Origin: Naegleria lovaniensis
Taxonomy: Eukaryota; Heterolobosea; Eutetramitea; Acrasida; Naegleriidae
Length of the DNA: 48,498 bases
Assembly: GCF_003324165.1 (NCBI RefSeq)
Contig: NW_025407863.1
Span: 5,043 to 53,540 of the forward strand
Reading direction: 5' to 3'
Shown here: one piece after another, positions 3,601 to 48,498 of the stretch
Position numbering within the stretch: the first letter of the stretch is position 1
How the letters are laid out: every line of letters starts with the position of its first letter
The notes under the pieces: generated by a model
Databases searched by the model: none
Told to the model about the DNA's origin: nothing
What the model saw: the letters and a program-made list of their open reading frames with translations, nothing else
Program-made: the position numbers and the translations under genes

Positions 3601-5190
3601 ATGACCTCAGCTTTGAATAATAACAATCACATACAATCCAGTAGTACTGGCACAACCGTGCATACCAATCATCAGAGATCATCTTCCAATGTCATTGTGT
3701 TAAAACCAAATAAGCAGAAAGTGTGTGCTCCTTCCTCTTCTTTAACAGCACACTGGGAAACAGAGTTAAAACAGAAAGAATCTGTATTGTTAGAAAGATT
3801 TCAAAGTATGGTATCTAAACCCATTCACAACGTGCCAGATATCAACAACAAAGATGTTGTCAAATTAATTGCCAAACAACACAAAATATCTGAACATCCA
3901 TTACTGAACCAATTGCACCATGAAATTTTGATATTAATTAACAGCAATGGTGGTGATATGCAAAATAATGGAGTGATCACAATAACCAAATTTGATTATC
4001 ATGTTGAACATGATATTGTATATAGCCCTGTCGTTGCATCAGGTAGAACTCTCTCACAACATACTGCACAACATTATGACAACTTTATTAAGACTCTCAC
4101 AAATGTTTGCTTAAATAGAGCAAAGAAGAAATATTTTGGAATGTCAGAAAGAACATTCTATAACATCCTTCATGACTGTGTTTGTGATGAAAATGCCAAT
4201 ATTCAAGCGATTAATGATCCCAATTTGAGATATATGAATGTTCACAGAATTCATTTACTTTTAGAATATTTTAATTCGAAAAAGTTTGCACAAAAATACC
4301 AACAACAATATCAACAAACGAAAGATGTCACTCTCATGGAGTTCTTATTGGACATTGGTGAACTAGTAGATATATTCAACTACTTGTGTAAATATTGTAG
4401 CAATTACTTGAAGTCAATCTTTGAACCTACATCGATACTTGTAGACAGTACGCACAGAGACGAATTTCTTTCGATTGTAGAATTACTTTGCCAAATGAGC
4501 TTTAAACTAGGATATTCATCCAAGTCCAGGGATGTGTACAATATCAACACATATATTTTGGGAAGCGTCGAAAAAGTTCAGCATTTCATCAAAGTGGCAA
4601 GTGAAATTTCGAAGTTTGTAGATTCTAAAAAGGTATTGATGATTGAAGACAGAGTCTATTTAGCTAAATTTGCTCGAGGTAGTATTTGTCCTGCACTAGA
4701 AAACTTTTTCAAACAAGGCATCAAATTTCAATCAGTCATGAAAGGATACTATCACATTTGGAATGTCATTTTGGAGCTATATTATTACTTACAATTTCAA
4801 TTACCAGATTTTGTGAAGTATCGGCTCAACCAAGCAATAGAAGAACAGCGAGCGGTAGATGTTTCCTCTTTGACCAACGAACAAGTTCACTACTTTGATT
4901 TTGTTCAGTATACCCTCATGATTTCCAAGTCCATACAAAGTGATGAATTGTTATTCGATCGACGTATACATTTCAGAACATGGATTTGCCTTGCACTCAA
5001 TCATCACAAGTTGTACAGCTTCATTCGTTTATTATTCAAGAACCACCAGATCCTTAAACGATATTATCATCCGGAGGCTTCTGTATTTAACCCACACGTG
5101 CAAGAGGTCATTTTATCTCATGTGAATTCCCTTTGTGAAATTGATTTTGACATCAAGCTCGACCATCAAGAGATGTTTGTAAATCTATAA
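658..5190 (+). CDS. RUN-domain protein with long coiled coil
   Basis: This is a single-exon gene of 1510 residues. The last 180 or so residues (about 1330-1505) resemble a RUN domain: an alpha-helical bundle with a late Trp-x-x-Leu-Ala-Leu-Asn segment (TWICLALNHHKL), an Arg-Tyr-Tyr-His-Pro stretch and a closing acidic IDFDIKLD. RUN proteins usually act as effectors of Rab or Rap GTPases on membranes or motor complexes; that role is inferred here. Residues about 360-600 are charged and heptad-like, suggesting coiled coil. Residues 600-1040 are low-complexity Ser/Thr/Asn sequence with an uninterrupted Ser run near 820. Residues 95-290 may form beta-rich domains that I could not name. The start is the first ATG after an A-rich stretch. 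The stop overlaps the convergent SPO11 gene. Confidence 0.75.
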   Translation: MTRIRETGASLSSTTNDGTYHGTTSSKRNTLDLRGVIGKFKTNPSSSSSSHQHNGNSVLNQIIADEQNFHLHPITEQEGTSSEGVNDLSFPVPPGRFKVQISNTTAMGLKLFSSVILRADVSCQSSGSSIMSKDDDQLCNSDNIEKGGSWSTLISTPMDSQQSIIRVTLFCEPPDSKCSYKITIHQIFNVLHTKGFELGKGEENDYNFELPMGQYHILVHSVNQIPFHCTYKFANSTSHSEKDITELKILPQPIVAIIEEDTDQTNLTQPLNVKVSAFSNKPVKGRLLILQSIGAMELKRMLDSEQRVTINEYKSLIDDCYTDKNVESLTDLETMLGDLLEKKGLRYQPIHSYVQAMKKHLIESQELEKEVKELVMNKSLKSSQLDQMQSQFRKLRHLVEKHKLDTKIIINLSEEEKKVTHYKEILKRIKDYTSRLKEYVNQYDTSTLEALLHDISEDTYLQDECCASMVHSMIEEPESILKKLKIIDSVKEDIEKYMMDEDLSQLEKIKKQIDTTYDSYERKYIEKEYTRLDESIKKIKTRLHAEKKLREAILTKQTHRIGSDIKAFEPYLKGTQILRDAKRIMEDLLDNGDADISKYVNQQETTVQNSEDLNPITRMNETTSVQSVPLVSTPSVITKTVSHQDPLKLPLDPMKETDVLSKLLLEDDDLSARDPTTSKSSLTNPSSSNPKNTSIESSLNSMDKKKDNLLDSILAEEYDDDYEEQTTTTPIVASSPSAQISNSSIFNNTSSNNNEPSVMISTTLSKAQTQRTSTSSPTRTIPKTSSKISIPKRKTKKATTPTTTSTTSMNVHPNTSNSSSSSSSGSDKSIVSTPQSPFSPPQEQVVNLNKSSLTMTTRQTHNKEEEELSDSDIENISDDEDDPTPLSKPVSVSQIMGAIYGDVLTEEEIKKGRNETLSSAHSGVDIERAPTSGGQEAKQHSYDNTTSSSQQQPPYNCNSATSSEITTTATATTNVVQPINHMTSALNNNNHIQSSSTGTTVHTNHQRSSSNVIVLKPNKQKVCAPSSSLTAHWETELKQKESVLLERFQSMVSKPIHNVPDINNKDVVKLIAKQHKISEHPLLNQLHHEILILINSNGGDMQNNGVITITKFDYHVEHDIVYSPVVASGRTLSQHTAQHYDNFIKTLTNVCLNRAKKKYFGMSERTFYNILHDCVCDENANIQAINDPNLRYMNVHRIHLLLEYFNSKKFAQKYQQQYQQTKDVTLMEFLLDIGELVDIFNYLCKYCSNYLKSIFEPTSILVDSTHRDEFLSIVELLCQMSFKLGYSSKSRDVYNINTYILGSVEKVQHFIKVASEISKFVDSKKVLMIEDRVYLAKFARGSICPALENFFKQGIKFQSVMKGYYHIWNVILELYYYLQFQLPDFVKYRLNQAIEEQRAVDVSSLTNEQVHYFDFVQYTLMISKSIQSDELLFDRRIHFRTWICLALNHHKLYSFIRLLFKNHQILKRYYHPEASVFNPHVQEVILSHVNSLCEIDFDIKLDHQEMFVNL

Positions 5191-6384
5191 TGATACAGAT
5201 TGGTTCTTAATGTTGAATCTACTAATTTTCTTTGATACAAACATTGTCAGGTAATTGATATCTCTGTAGCTGACCAAAGACTCGATTTCAAATTTCAATG
5301 TTTTCATCTTTTCAAGCTCTGCATAAATCTGGAGAGCGTTCTTGCCGCCTCTGCTCTTTACGTCATGTTGGTGTCTGTCTAATAATTTAAGTTCTTGCTC
5401 AGTGACACTCTGGCAGTAAAAGCTGGGAAGATCCTTAATATCATCATACAACAACCCAATCCATTCTATTCTATCTCCCAATGTAGTGCTTTGTTGGATC
5501 GAATGCTTACTAAGCTCCACACTTCCATACTTGAATGTTGTTACTATTTGATATCCATGAATGTTGAAGTCACACAGAGCATAGATTTGAGCTTGAGGAA
5601 ATTTGGATGATATTTGATGCAAAATATATCGTGTAATAATACTTGGATACCCACAGCCGGTAATGATGCAAATATTCCGCACCCATTTGAATATCTTATC
5701 CTCGACAAGCCTTCTAAATATCGCATCTTTTTCGACAATTAAGATGGTATCAACTTTACCAAAGAAGTCAATCGTAGGAAAATCGCCTGGAATTTGTTCC
5801 ACCGTAGATGCCGTGAGATGATGGCAAGAAACCAGAGCATTGCCACTTCCGTCGTTGCTGTACAAAAAACCCTTGCTCATACAAATGATATTTAGGACAG
5901 ATCGATCCACATTCAAAATGTCTCCAACACAACTTAGGTATCTATTGCATTGATTCTGATCTTTGAACGCCATGACATTCATATAGAACAACTCTCTTTG
6001 GGTGATCTTAATTCCTTGCTGTATCAGCTTAAAAATGTTGTTCATCAACAACCAAATAAAGTGGCTTTTTCGTTTTGGAGAAGTGCCGTGTCGTAATGAA
6101 TAAGTTCCAGAAGCAGTTTTCAGTACATTGATGGGCTTGGTTTGAGATAAAGCTGTGGGTTGATCTTCAGTTTGGATTTCAGATCGGAACTTGTATTTGA
6201 AAAGCAGATCTTCCAAGGTCTTCTTTTCTTGAATGAGTTGTAAGAGAAATTCAACAACATGAGCTTCAATGAGCGCTATTAGCTCTTCTCTTGAAAGAAT
6301 GTAATGAATTTGGCAAAGCCTTTCAATATCAAACAAATTCCAGTCCGTTGGCACCTCATCATTGAGGCTTGGTGTTTCATCCAT
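5185..6384 (-). CDS. SPO11: SPO11, meiotic DNA double-strand-break enzyme
   Basis: A 399-residue protein without introns, matching SPO11/topoisomerase VI subunit A. The winged-helix part carries ITQRELFYMN, with Tyr134 placed as the catalytic tyrosine. The TOPRIM domain shows LIVEKD (Glu218), then TGCGYP, then ALCDFNIHG (Asp272, with Asn274 where the second metal-binding Asp often sits). SPO11 family enzymes cut DNA by transesterification to start meiotic recombination in the nucleus. The length is normal for the family. The start follows a run of A. Its stop overlaps the last 6 bases of the RUN gene on the other strand, and the start lies about 48 bp downstream of the Hikeshi-like stop on the same strand, too close for a large promoter. 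Confidence 0.9.
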   Translation of the reverse strand: MDETPSLNDEVPTDWNLFDIERLCQIHYILSREELIALIEAHVVEFLLQLIQEKKTLEDLLFKYKFRSEIQTEDQPTALSQTKPINVLKTASGTYSLRHGTSPKRKSHFIWLLMNNIFKLIQQGIKITQRELFYMNVMAFKDQNQCNRYLSCVGDILNVDRSVLNIICMSKGFLYSNDGSGNALVSCHHLTASTVEQIPGDFPTIDFFGKVDTILIVEKDAIFRRLVEDKIFKWVRNICIITGCGYPSIITRYILHQISSKFPQAQIYALCDFNIHGYQIVTTFKYGSVELSKHSIQQSTTLGDRIEWIGLLYDDIKDLPSFYCQSVTEQELKLLDRHQHDVKSRGGKNALQIYAELEKMKTLKFEIESLVSYRDINYLTMFVSKKISRFNIKNQSVSL

Positions 6385-41973: not shown

Positions 41974-44900
41974 TTATAAAACTTCATCATCTGAATCGAT
42001 GAATATGGTTTCTCTTTGTGTAGTTACATGTGAGATTTCTTCGTGGTCATCAGGTATGGAAATGATGTTTTGCATGGAATTCATAGATGATGACACCCTT
42101 GATTGTTGTTGAGAAGGTGGTGGTCGCATCATTGATTCGTCATCAGCGATCAGAGAAATTACAGGTGTGTGGTTGGGTGGAGAGGAAGAAGATGCTTGAC
42201 GTTGAGGTGGCATGTTAGTAGAGTTCGTATAAGCAGTTGAATTGAAAAAGAATGAAGGAAGTGATGAGTGTTGCTGTTGCGGTACTGCACTACTACTACT
42301 GCTTGATCCAATGATCCCCAATGACGTGTTTGCTGTTGGTTGTGAAAATTGTTGTGGTGTCTGAGTTTGAGAAAATGGTGTTTGTTGTTGTGTGGATGCT
42401 GTGGGAAGGCTAGTTCCACCACTACTGCTATTGCTGCGAATATTACTACTACTACTACCACTGCCACTACTACTACTCGTATTACTCTCATGAGCCAGCT
42501 GTGTTCGAAAATACATATTGGACAGTCTAGACCAAATATCTGACAAGGCAGATGTAGCATTCCTCTCTTCTGCACTGTACACCACGGATTCATCCTCTCG
42601 AGCTTGCATGAATTGTTGTAATCTTGCCAATATGGACAATCGAGAAGTATCTTGAGAAGATGATGATGTTGGAGGAATCCATCCACTATTACTACTACCA
42701 CTACTACCACTACTACCACTACTACCACTACTACTCAAACCACCACCAGCATTGATACTACTACCGCTATGAAGAATTTGATCCATCATGGGTAATCCAT
42801 TCAACATCATGGACATCATTCCATCATCATTTCCATCAATCATTGTGTTTCGAAGTGCATTCAATAAAATACTTGGATTTTCTCGAACTTGTTTTCTTCT
42901 CTCTTCATAAATGGTAAATGTTTGTTCTTGTTCATTTTCTTGTAATCTCAAATTATCATTTTCAACAAAGAGTGAATCATAGGGATAGACGGTTTTGATT
43001 TTTCGTTCTACATTGAATTCTCCTGTTGTGAGTGATTCCTCTGGTGTATTTGTATTATCGTTATTTGAAATATTCCTTGAATGACTTGAATTACTACTCA
43101 TTGAATGACTTGAACTCATTGAATTATTTGAATTACTACTACTACTCCTTGAATGACTACTTGAAGAACTACTACTGGTCGTATGATTCATAGAATGATT
43201 CTTGTTCATCAAATCTTGATTCTTTACATCATCATTGTGTGAACATTGTTCATCAGAGACATCCACATGAACAGGTCTCAATGGATCAATTTCTTCACTT
43301 TTCGAATCATAGGTCCAATGAGTTCCTAATAATTCTTTTAAAATTTCATCATCTTGATATCTTTTAGGATTCAATAAGAGCTTGTCTGTGAGTGTTTCTT
43401 CAATTCTTTTAGCTTGCTTAATAATTTCCAAATCATCCTTCTTAAGAAATAAATCAGGTGTTTGATCATCGACAACTCTTCTTGCAAGCCATGCTTTCGC
43501 TGTACTTAGATTGAAAATCTTTTCTTCAGCAGATCCATAGGTGACTAATCGATAGACATACACTGGTTTTGTTTGTCCAAATCGATACGTTCTAAATAAG
43601 GCTTGTTTATCCCAAGTATCATTCCATGAAACATCATAAATAACTACTCGTGTAGCAGCAGTTAAATTAATTCCTAATCCACCTGCTTTGGTACTAATTA
43701 AAAAGACATGAGCTTGAGATTCTGGTGTAAATGCATCAATCATGGCTTGTCTCTTTTTAGAATTTACACTTCCATCCAATCGAAAATAATCTTCTCCTTT
43801 TTTTAACACTTTTACAATGGGTTGTTGAGAGAGATCAGTTCCAATGACAAGTGGTGTTTTTGAAAATACTTTTTCAATGACACTCAATGTCTCTGTATAT
43901 TGTGAAAAGACTAGAATCTTTTCATCATGTACATAACACTTTTCAATGAGTCGAATCAGAAATTCCATTTTCGCACTCTTTTTAGCATCACCTTGTTGAT
44001 AATCGGGTGAGAGAACAGGTGCTGCCCAAAACAACGATGATGCATCAAATGCATGTTCAGCTTGTTCCATGAATTGATCAAATTCTTGTTCCATTTGTGC
44101 ATCATCCATGTCTGTATCGAGTGAACTTTTGTGTTTCTTTTTTTTTTGTGAAGAGTAGAAATGTAATTCTTGAGGAGTGTCCTCATACGGGAGGTCTTGT
44201 GGTGGATGGTTGAGGACAATTTCAGAATCATGCATGTCATGATGATTTCTTATTGTTGTTTCTAGGGTAGTTGTTGTTATACTAGTATTATTGTTACTAC
44301 TACTATTGTTACTACTATTGTTACTACTATTGTTACTACTACTACTGTTACTGTTACTACTACTGGTTCTACAAGTCTCTTCCATAATTTGTTCAAGTGC
44401 ACTCTTCCTTGATGGTTGAATGTCTTGCACAAGATCTTGTGGTGTTCTTGTTGTATTTGATTCACTCTTTGGGGTGAGTGGACTCAGAAAATCCATATTC
44501 AATAATTCATCATCATCATCAATCACAATGCTGGGTGTTGAGGATCGAGAGGATGAACAAGATTCTTGTTTCATGAGGGATGACGTGATATTCAAACTGC
44601 TATTCCTATGAATACTACTATTACAACTACTATTACTGCTACCAGTATGAGGAGAGGTCATTCTCTTCTTTCTTTGACCACCCATCATGGTGGTGGTACT
44701 GAGAGGTGTTCGAGGTGATGATGATGATGACTGGTTTACTCTTAGTCGAGTCCAATCACCACCACCACTAATACCACCACTTATACCAGTAGTAGTAGTA
44801 GTAGTAGCAGTAACACCATTCTTATTTTCATGAGATTTGATGGATTGTTGCTGAGAATTGGGTGGAATGAAAGTAACATCTTCGATTGGTGGTTGTTGCG

Positions 44901-47106: not shown

Positions 47107-47480
47107 ATTTTTTTTGGTCCAAGTCGGTTGAATGAAAATACGCTTGAGTTGGCCCTGATTTTAAGATAATGAAAAATTTCATAGGCCAAGCTACAAGAAG
47201 AACTTTTCGCTGGAAATTTTAAACTTGGCACAATTACAACTCAAACAAAATCGTTTTTTGTATCAACCTCCAACTTTCTTCTTTGTTTTATGTAGACCCT
47301 CATTGGTCTTCTCTTTTCCTCTTAATCTGCTTGATGTTGAAACAATCAATAGCTTTCCATGTGTTCTTAATTTTGCGCTCACATAACTGTCACCAACAAA
47401 GAGTATGTATAACTAGAATGCATAAAGCATCAAGAATCATGTTCGTTGATTGAAAATCGTCGGGGTTGAAAAATGACCAG
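47107..47480. other. Intergenic region upstream of ATRX-like gene
   Basis: 374 bp, presumed promoter of the ATRX-like gene. No gene, tRNA or repeat was recognised. Confidence 0.35.
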
Positions 47481-47532
47481 AATATCATTTTGCCTTTACC
47501 TTTGATCGGGTTGAATGTAGTAATCAAAAACA
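47481..47532 (+). repeat. Left arm of a 52-bp perfect inverted repeat
   Basis: These 52 bases are the exact reverse complement of 48447-48498. The arm begins AATATCATTTTGCCTTTACC. Immediately inside, the two sides diverge. Confidence 0.97.
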
Positions 47533-48064
47533 GATCATAAAGTTAAGAGATTTCTTGTCCTTTGTTATGAAATAAAAGTAAGTGAAAAAAGATCTACATC
47601 TGTTGAGTGCGGTAGAAGTTTGAACAACCTCACCATTTTAGTTTTTCATTTCGCTACATCTCCGCGGCTCAAGTATGTTATGTAACTTCAAACAATAATA
47701 GATTAATACCAATGGGTTAGTTGCTGTCTCCTCTCCAGGAAGTGTCGCTTCTTTGGAGATGGAGTGTCAACCAACAACCTTTATTGTTGTACAGTTGTCC
47801 CGAGAAATGGATACTAGAATGTGATGAAAAAACTCAAATTGCTCTGAGAAAAACCACATTGAATGGATAATAGCTCTGGGACGAATATAGATCATATAAA
47901 TAAATTTGTTAGTAAACATCAATCAAATCATCAACAAAAAGTTAATTTTGAAACAAATCAAGAATATTCAAGTCTACTTCACCACAAGTGATCATAAAAA
48001 AAGGTTAGCTCAATAAAAATTTGTTAAATAAGAAATTGATATAAACCATGTTCCTTGAAAAACA

Positions 48065-48249
48065 TCGCATTAATGCGACGAAAACATCGTTGAGCGAATC
48101 AACGACGGATAAAATTTAAAAAAGATCGTGGGAAAAAACCCATCAATAATGGCCAAAGCCAATCGAAGACACAAAAGTGTCAAAGGAAATCACTGAGCAA
48201 ATCAATGATACATAAGGCAAAAGCCAATTAATACAACACAAAGTGTTGT
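48065..48249. other. Row of eight short hairpins
   Basis: In order: TCGCATTAATGCGA (48065-48078), TCGTTGA-GCGAA-TCAACGA (48087-48105), TGGG-A6-CCCA (48129-48142), TGGC-CAAA-GCCA (48150-48161), GACAC-AAAA-GTGTC (48168-48181), TCACTGA-GCAAA-TCAATGA with one mismatch (48190-48208), GGC-AAAA-GCC (48216-48225) and ACAACAC-AAA-GTGTTGT (48233-48249). Centres are about 18 to 40 nt apart. Stem sequences differ while loops stay A-rich, so it is not a simple repeat. Whether DNA or RNA folds is unknown. Confidence 0.75.
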
Positions 48250-48374
48250 TGAATTCTAAGTATATAATGGGAGGGAAGGGAGGGTGTTGTTGTGGTGCCA
48301 GACTGTTGGGAAGCTGCAGTAGTGGTATTAGTTTGCTCTTTAGAGAGCTGTTTTGGTTGTGGATTTGTTGACAT
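48228..48374 (-). CDS. Possible 48-residue ORF inside inverted-repeat element
   Basis: ATG after six A, the same start context as the firm genes here, then MSTNPQPKQLSKEQTN and a Thr/Ala/Ser/Gln stretch and a TTTTPSLPSHY segment, ending at TAA. Composition matches local protein N termini. It may be a first exon whose remainder lies outside the window or a captured fragment. The G-quadruplex motif lies inside it on the other strand. Confidence 0.25.
   Translation of the reverse strand: MSTNPQPKQLSKEQTNTTTAASQQSGTTTTPSLPSHYILRIQQHFVLY
48269..48284 (+). other. G-quadruplex motif
   Basis: GGGAGGGAAGGGAGGG: four G3 runs with loops of 1, 2 and 1 base. Such short loops make stable quadruplexes in vitro. 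G runs are rare elsewhere in this AT-rich window. Confidence 0.8.
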
Positions 48375-48446
48375 TTTTTAGCCATACTTTTAGTCAACCT
48401 TATTGTTTTCGTTACAAAACACTTCCGTTCTTTTCAGAACATTCAA

Positions 48447-48498
48447 TGTTTTTGATTACTACATTCAACCCGATCAAAGGTAAAGGCAAAATGATATT
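48447..48498 (-). repeat. Right arm of 52-bp inverted repeat (at window end)
   Basis: Exact reverse complement of 47481-47532. It ends at the last base of the window, so the arm may be longer. Confidence 0.97.

Follow-up and report, generated by a model that had tools for sequence, protein, structure and literature searches.

Short hairpins behind a C-rich tract near the 3' end of a PAT-type tyrosine-recombinase retrotransposon in Naegleria lovaniensis

Host element of the hairpin array

Eight short hairpins that follow each other within 185 bp of the N. lovaniensis genome belong to the 3' noncoding region of a PAT-type tyrosine-recombinase retrotransposon (here E1), which is read from the minus strand of the 48.5-kb stretch of DNA that we analyzed (the window; Table 1). 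A reading of this DNA made from its letters alone (the sequence-only reading) had listed a transposon end among the possible sources of the array, and this proposal is borne out by the repeats, open reading frames and protein domains of the element. When we searched the host genome (30.7 Mb, 97 contigs), the 776-bp dispersed repeat that carries the array had at least 72 matches, and the 401 bp around the array had at least 35.

Table 1. Features of the E1 copy in the window, by window position
Feature	Position	Strand	Basis or remark
E1 3' end (b2 to a2), PAT-type tyrosine-recombinase retrotransposon	47675..48450	minus	repeat boundaries; at least 72 genome matches
b2, the terminal one of the 47-bp b repeats	47675..47721	minus	b1 is a second copy of positions 1-47
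AATAAA, candidate poly(A) signal, 5' of b2 on the sense strand	47780..47785	minus	position 666 of 776
Hairpin array, eight short hairpins	48065..48249	minus	sequence, folds, hairpin count, background windows
Hairpin 1, TCGCA/TGCGA	48065..48078	minus	plus- and minus-strand folds, E1 copies
Hairpin 2, TCGTTGA/TCAACGA	48087..48105	minus	plus- and minus-strand folds, E1 copies
Hairpin 3, TGGG/CCCA	48129..48142	minus	plus- and minus-strand folds, E1 copies
Hairpin 4, TGGC/GCCA	48150..48161	minus	plus-strand fold, E1 copies
Hairpin 5, GACAC/GTGTC	48168..48181	minus	plus- and minus-strand folds, E1 copies
Hairpin 6, sense AUCAUUGA/UCAGUGAU, with a U-G pair	48189..48209	minus	plus- and minus-strand folds, E1 copies
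Hairpin 7, GGC/GCC	48216..48225	minus	plus- and minus-strand folds, E1 copies
Hairpin 8, ACAACAC/GTGTTGT	48233..48249	minus	plus- and minus-strand folds, E1 copies
C-rich tract CCCTCCCTTCCCTCCC	48269..48284	minus	plus strand GGGAGGGAAGGGAGGG, G-quadruplex motif
a2, internal copy of repeat a	48285..48450	minus	holds gag start codon region, ATG 48374-48372

On contigs C4 and C21, the first 47 bp of the repeat occur again after its end, and its last 165 bp recur about 4 kb further on, which is the split-direct-repeat layout. The repeat b1 adjoins a2 at C4:519438-519484, C21:401804-401850 and C52:167692-167738, while a1 comprises positions 611 to 772-775 of the repeat and recurs about 4 kb away on C4, C21 and C43; the same positions are also found on C2. 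Between the repeats, the minus strand of the C4 copy (L059) encodes a gag-like open reading frame of 397 amino acids, a reverse transcriptase (RT)/Dam-like frame, and an overlapping frame that ends in a tyrosine recombinase. Pfam searches of this copy detected RVT_1 (8.6e-27), Phage_integrase (4.5e-14) and Dam (1.2e-6; 28.7 bits at a cut-off of 28.1); no Pfam domain matched the gag-like frame. RT and recombinase are present beside the intact copies on both C4 and C21, the stop codon of the recombinase adjoins b1 (L059 97 and 39-82), and a1 carries the gag start, so that the element reads in its sense direction a1, gag, RT/methyltransferase, recombinase, b1, a2, C-rich tract, hairpin array, AATAAA, b2. 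Since the repeat begins with TG and ends with CA, a Ty3 or Ty1 LTR had been considered, a reading that we gave up in view of the split repeats and the recombinase frame.

The copy in the window is the 3' end of an element at C43:52717-57858. Its a2 is followed by a 52-nt inverted copy and then by an N gap, so b1 is not seen there; beyond the gap the sequence resumes as E1 over 1274 nt that are 100% identical to the C4 copy, and the RT of the window copy falls into the gap or past it. The perfect 52-nt inverted repeat has its arms at 47481-47532 and 48447-48498, the second of which occupies the b1 site of other copies and abuts the N gap (C43:53541-56584). It had no other match in the genome at the sensitivity used and is perhaps a misassembly at the contig edge. 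By eye, three E1 copies (C43, C4, C21) showed no target-site duplication in their flanks. An AATAAA near b2 also occurs in the related families E2, E3 and E4 described below and, by eye, in E5 and E6; it is a weak candidate for a poly(A) signal, as we estimate about one chance occurrence per region in such AT-rich DNA.

Folding of the array

All eight self-complementary segments that the sequence-only reading had reported in a row can be read within the array, and folding against dinucleotide-shuffled controls (200 per strand) revealed it to be far more stable than expected on both strands. The plus strand reached -44.6 kcal/mol, compared to -24.8 (sd 3.5) for its shuffles (z -5.72), and the minus strand -53.2 kcal/mol, compared to -31.8 (sd 3.8; z -5.60); on neither strand was the value attained by any of the 200 controls. 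For the 200 nt behind the C-rich tract, with pair spans limited to 40 nt, the z values were -5.92 on the minus and -5.53 on the plus strand (0 of 500 shuffles each). We built a background of 476 windows from 238 positions of the 48.5-kb window on both strands, with 60 shuffles each; none was as low as -5.92. The lowest background value (z -4.66) came from the plus strand of 43801-44000, inside a SNF2-type gene of the opposite strand. In sliding windows along the C4 copy of the element, no other local structure is as strong as the array (z -6.1).

The sequence-only reading had made its case depend on the hairpin content of shuffled sequence. Over 47675-48450 we counted 12 hairpins, while shuffles gave a mean of 4.9 and none of 300 reached the observed number. 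This count has to be read with caution, since a coding control from E2 (L060 3000-3850) also exceeds its shuffles (15 versus 7.3; 0 of 300); for the other four controls, the observed count was reached by 16, 71, 295 and 172 of 300 shuffles. By virtue of the shuffles and the 476 background windows, chance folding of AT-rich sequence is ruled out for E1.

A known RNA family was likewise rejected, as no Rfam 15 model matched at its gathering score anywhere in the window; no tRNA was found either. The idea of a free-standing non-coding RNA, also raised by the sequence-only reading, is thus left without support. Stems of three to eight pairs seem too short for a Dicer substrate or a microRNA precursor. 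Class I RNAs of Dictyostelium gave no match, and neither did the controls of that search. As to the suggestion that some hairpins are diverged copies of each other, hairpins 2 and 6 are indeed alike (TGA-GCGAA-TCA and TGA-GCAAA-TCA), but an origin through paired changes cannot be demonstrated from a single copy.

Related families and the C-rich tract

A search of the same genome with the E1 recombinase uncovered five further families: E4 (44 and 39% identical), E2 (32%), E3 (30%), E6 (26%) and E5 (25%), the latter with ten rows at or near frames of 1332 amino acids or parts thereof. RT matches are found close to the recombinase in E2, E4, E5 and E6; among the matches listed, none lies near E3. 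The Dam domain was tested on E1 (C4 copy) and on E2 (C25 copy), and in the latter Pfam detected RVT_1 (8.7e-24), Dam (2.2e-11) and Phage_integrase (1e-8). Direct repeats of both types, a and b, were found in E1, E2, E4 and E5; of the repeats of E3 and E6, only b copies were found. The DNA of E2 and E3 is 76% identical over 87 nt close to the end of the recombinase and to the b/a junction; the five other families are therefore not fully independent. The array regions themselves showed no match to one another in a DNA comparison of E1 to E4.

By eye, a C-rich tract follows a2 in all six families, in a looser form in E3, where two CCC runs are accompanied by a CCCC farther off. The tracts are CCCTCCCTTCCCTCCC in E1, CCCTCCCGTCCCACCC in E2, CCCACCCATCGCACTCCCACCC in E4, CCCACCCTCCTCCC in E5 and CCCACCGCCCCACCC in E6. 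On the antisense strand, those of E1, E2 and E4 form a four-run G motif, and the E1 tract is the sole motif of this kind on either strand of the window; three-run C motifs are confined to this tract and one other place in the window. For four families a1 could be located, and in each of them repeat a comes to its end at the tract, with no gap in E1 (611 versus 595-610), E4 (206 versus 207) and E5 (218 versus 219), and within 6 nt in E2. Among the E1 copies, the tract is 98.4% conserved compared to 95.6% overall, a value that is not special, as 114 of 761 windows of 16 nt are equally high.

Structure behind the tract in the other families

We then evaluated the 200 nt behind the tract in every family. 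On the sense strand, z amounted to -5.92 in E1 (0 of 500 shuffles), -2.62 in E2 (3 of 500), -3.13 in E3 (1 of 500), -1.75 in E4 (26 of 500), -1.92 in E5 (16 of 500) and -2.34 in E6 (3 of 300), and the numbers of background windows as low as these values were 0, 5, 3, 25, 17 and 7 of 476, respectively. Only 5e-6 of random five-window sets matched the mean of E2 to E6. The rule of taking 200 nt after the C-rich tract was fixed after inspection of E1 to E4; E5 and E6 came later, when their sequences had already been read. The corresponding antisense values (E1 -5.53, E2 -0.79, E3 -1.42, E4 -1.23, E5 -1.72, E6 -2.98) reveal a weak strand preference, the sense strand being lower in five of the six families and the order being reversed in E6.

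Hairpin counts exceeded those of shuffles in E1 (0 of 300), E2 (0 of 300) and E3 (3 of 300), but not in E4, where 62 of 300 shuffles reached the observed count. For E6, the whole stretch to b2 was not significant (z -0.78; 66 of 300), and for E4 or E6 taken alone chance folding could still hold. The coding region of E2 possesses unusually strong local structure on its sense strand, with 200-nt windows down to z -3.6 (L060 3000-3850 in the hairpin count); the value behind the tract is therefore not special within E2. Taken across distant families, the combination of a C-rich tract with local hairpins of unrelated stems hints at an undescribed structural signal in copying.

The E5 array

The array of E5 (L085 sense 336-630, C28) consists of about 13 hairpins whose stems differ while the GGATGC linkers between them are constant; one block of three units is present twice. 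Over 320 nt it folds with z -3.48 (0 of 500). Since the linker, and not the pairing, sets the limits of the inserts, their self-complementarity can be tested. A comparable re-pairing test on the E1 hairpins was discarded as circular because these had been selected for pairing. We used nine of the twelve E5 inserts, three near or exact repeats being dropped, and set the outer limits of the first and the last insert ourselves. The longest helices of these nine distinct inserts summed to 36, compared to a mean of 26.3 after their 3' halves had been re-dealt, and none of 20000 re-dealings reached the observed sum; one insert pairs poorly, with a longest run of 2. Ten copies match at least 757 of the 759 positions of the E5 3' region at 99-100%, and on C10, C48 and C3 the halves of the array overlap as though one unit block had been lost.

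Covariation and conservation among copies

The sequence-only reading had suggested that paired changes accumulated in the stems, yet a covariation test among the copies came out nearly empty. Of 22 E1 segments extracted, 19 were used; C4:518667, which is identical here, and the partial C22:335856 and C26:230943 were left out. Across these 19 copies, 95.4% of 700 cells pair, a figure that depends on a structure taken from one of the same copies. Both sides had changed in 2 of 43 pairs, corresponding to 3 of the 700 cells, and no compensatory change was present in six E2 or seven E4 copies. The E1 covariation score was reached by only 2 of 500 shuffles; the count of pairs changed on both sides is not in excess, as 68 of 500 shuffles reach it, and one of these two pairs rests on the C71 and C20 copies, which have changes in common. 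The latter two (L018, C71:27051; L020, C20:346577) share nearly all of their changes, and the segment was probably duplicated.

Broken pairs comprised 10 A-C and 20 G-U cells in E1 and, among the changed cells of E2, 12 A-C and 2 G-U. Since A-C is found besides G-U, no sense-RNA constraint is seen in either family; as a test of strand, these cells show no clear bias in E1 and point the opposite way in E2. The array is 94.9% conserved among E1 copies, compared to 94.6-95.0% for its flanks, and a2 98.2%. Whole hairpins are missing from several E1 copies (C26, C50, C9, C34); C17:352621 possesses a longer hairpin 1 that is still self-complementary. Conservation equal to that of the neighbouring DNA is as expected under drift if most copies are remnants, and since most probably are, the copies neither prove nor exclude selection in active elements.

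Comparison with known elements

PAT elements are defined by split direct repeats (A1 ... B1-A2 ... B2), an RT with a methyltransferase, and a tyrosine recombinase, according to the parts of PMC4157794 and PMC3266345 on which we draw. E1 resembles this group of the DIRS order (Pat1, Toc, kangaroo) in all three respects. A direct a1 ... b1-a2 ... b2 arrangement was found in E1 (on C4 and C21), E2, E4 and E5, and RT with Dam plus a recombinase of the same orientation lie upstream of the internal repeats in E1 and E2. On these sequence grounds we classify E1 as a further PAT-type element, by its repeats, gene order and domains and not by placement in a tree. It differs in possessing both a hairpin array and a C-rich tract behind A2, neither of which is mentioned for the PAT group in the parts of these two papers covered here.

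DIRS1-like elements such as DIRS-1 of Dictyostelium likewise possess RT, methyltransferase and tyrosine recombinase, and a circular intermediate has been proposed for them (PMC3266345, in the part used). Their terminal repeats are inverted and accompanied by internal complementary regions, whereas the terminal and internal copies of E1 are direct, which rules out this identity; the 52-nt inverted repeat of the window falls outside the DIRS1 scheme. Ngaro and VIPER elements are described without a methyltransferase domain in the relevant parts of PMC3266345 and PMC4157794, and the Dam matches in E1 and E2 eliminate them for these two families.

In the dictyostelid element Skipper, a pyrimidine tract (PPy) directly behind the left LTR stands in for the primer-binding site, and unconventional priming has been suggested (PMC5006619, in the part consulted). 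Skipper is a Ty3/gypsy element with an integrase, whereas the E1 tract follows a2 of a recombinase element; the likeness is one of layout.

In the open literature searched, outside of which lie the founding papers on PAT and DIRS-1, neither an array nor a tract of this kind was found described for tyrosine-recombinase retrotransposons; the terms hairpin, secondary structure, stem-loop and palindrom- are absent from the main texts of PMC3266345, PMC3783388 and PMC6681497.

Possible roles of the tract and the hairpins

Retroviruses possess a stem-loop leader, with the packaging and recognition region, 3' of the primer-binding site, the site at which an LTR stops. E1 is similar in its order of repeat end, putative priming tract and run of short stem-loops, an analogy and not a matter of membership; its module differs in being located in the 3' noncoding region, and priming by the tract is putative. 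Our best reading is that the segment acts as a structured cis element in RNA or cDNA, a role that we infer. More specifically, the C-rich tract and the hairpins may together constitute a cis-acting structured module of the genomic RNA of the element, a proposal drawn from sequence comparison to which we give about even chances. Because the tract bounds repeat a in the way that a primer-binding site bounds an LTR, the tract would be the site where copying starts or switches. The hairpins immediately 3' of it would then be the counterpart of the retroviral leader, and Gag or RT might bind them, thereby selecting and folding the template; what would matter is the run of short stems, not the stem sequence. 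We only tentatively extend this proposal to split-direct-repeat tyrosine-recombinase elements in general. These would carry a two-part signal behind a2: a C-rich tract, equivalent to a primer-binding site, would determine where repeat a ends, and an array of short hairpins free in sequence would serve as a packaging or recognition leader. The start of reverse transcription would thus be encoded in their 3' region.

The selection for structure put forward by the sequence-only reading gains indirect support from the structure of unrelated sequence behind the tract in five other families and from the linkers and inserts of E5; against it stand the near absence of compensatory change and an array conserved like its flanks. 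The same two observations, with compensatory change scarce in E1 and absent in E2 and E4, would suit an array that has no function at all and is a mutational by-product: mistakes of RT or of replication, such as a switch of template at short inverted repeats or the duplication of units that bear hairpins, would have created and spread short palindromes in a tolerant noncoding part. The loss of whole hairpins in four E1 copies, the longer hairpin 1 on C17, the repeated unit blocks of E5 and the overlapping halves of its array in three copies also fit such an origin. However, the placement behind a C-rich tract is identical in six families, error alone does not readily produce constant linkers with differing stems as in E5, and hairpin loss in old copies says nothing of active ones; we consider this explanation doubtful, while still reckoning with it. 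Less probable, in our estimation, is a module that operates on DNA, in which a quadruplex strand and hairpins on single-stranded cDNA or on a circular intermediate mark second-strand synthesis, circle closure or the binding of the recombinase. It would account for the nearly equal antisense folding in E1, E5 and E6, for the antisense four-run G motif in E1, E2 and E4, and for the end of repeat a at the tract, and the encoded recombinase and the lack of a visible target duplication at three copies fit a circular intermediate. Yet the structure is mainly on the sense strand in E2 (-2.6 versus -0.8) and E3 (-3.1 versus -1.4), and the junction at which recombination takes place is b/a rather than the tract.

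A host regulatory feature unrelated to the cycle of the element, either a free-standing non-coding RNA or an array bound by a host protein, would agree with the stable local folds. We regard it as very improbable, given that the array is present in dispersed copies within the repeat unit and that Rfam offered no match at gathering score; since the stem sequences differ, no shared protein site is evident. That AT-rich, low-complexity sequence simply happens to fold is hardly credible: hairpin counting by itself does flag a coding control as well, but neither the 200 and 500 shuffles nor the 476 background windows ever reached the E1 values.

To our knowledge, the start and finish of reverse transcription and the closure of the circle in elements of the DIRS order are known only from models. 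If copying starts or switches at the tract and the template is recognized by its hairpins, a short and defined target for tests is available in six families of one genome. The array of E5, with its constant linkers and changing stems, would also offer a clear example of selection acting on the hairpins themselves and not on their sequence.

Other features of the window

The window has a GC content of 35%, and its genes include Prp3, a Spo11-like gene, RUN and SNF2. About seven other sites of the genome are 73-85% similar to the segment 47221-47361, which is accompanied by further pieces at 47363-47482 and looks like part of another dispersed repeat. On the minus strand, 5185-6384 comprises an open reading frame similar to Spo11/topoisomerase VI A (Pfam TOP6A-Spo11_Toprim 5.4e-27; PDB SPO11 2.6e-08).
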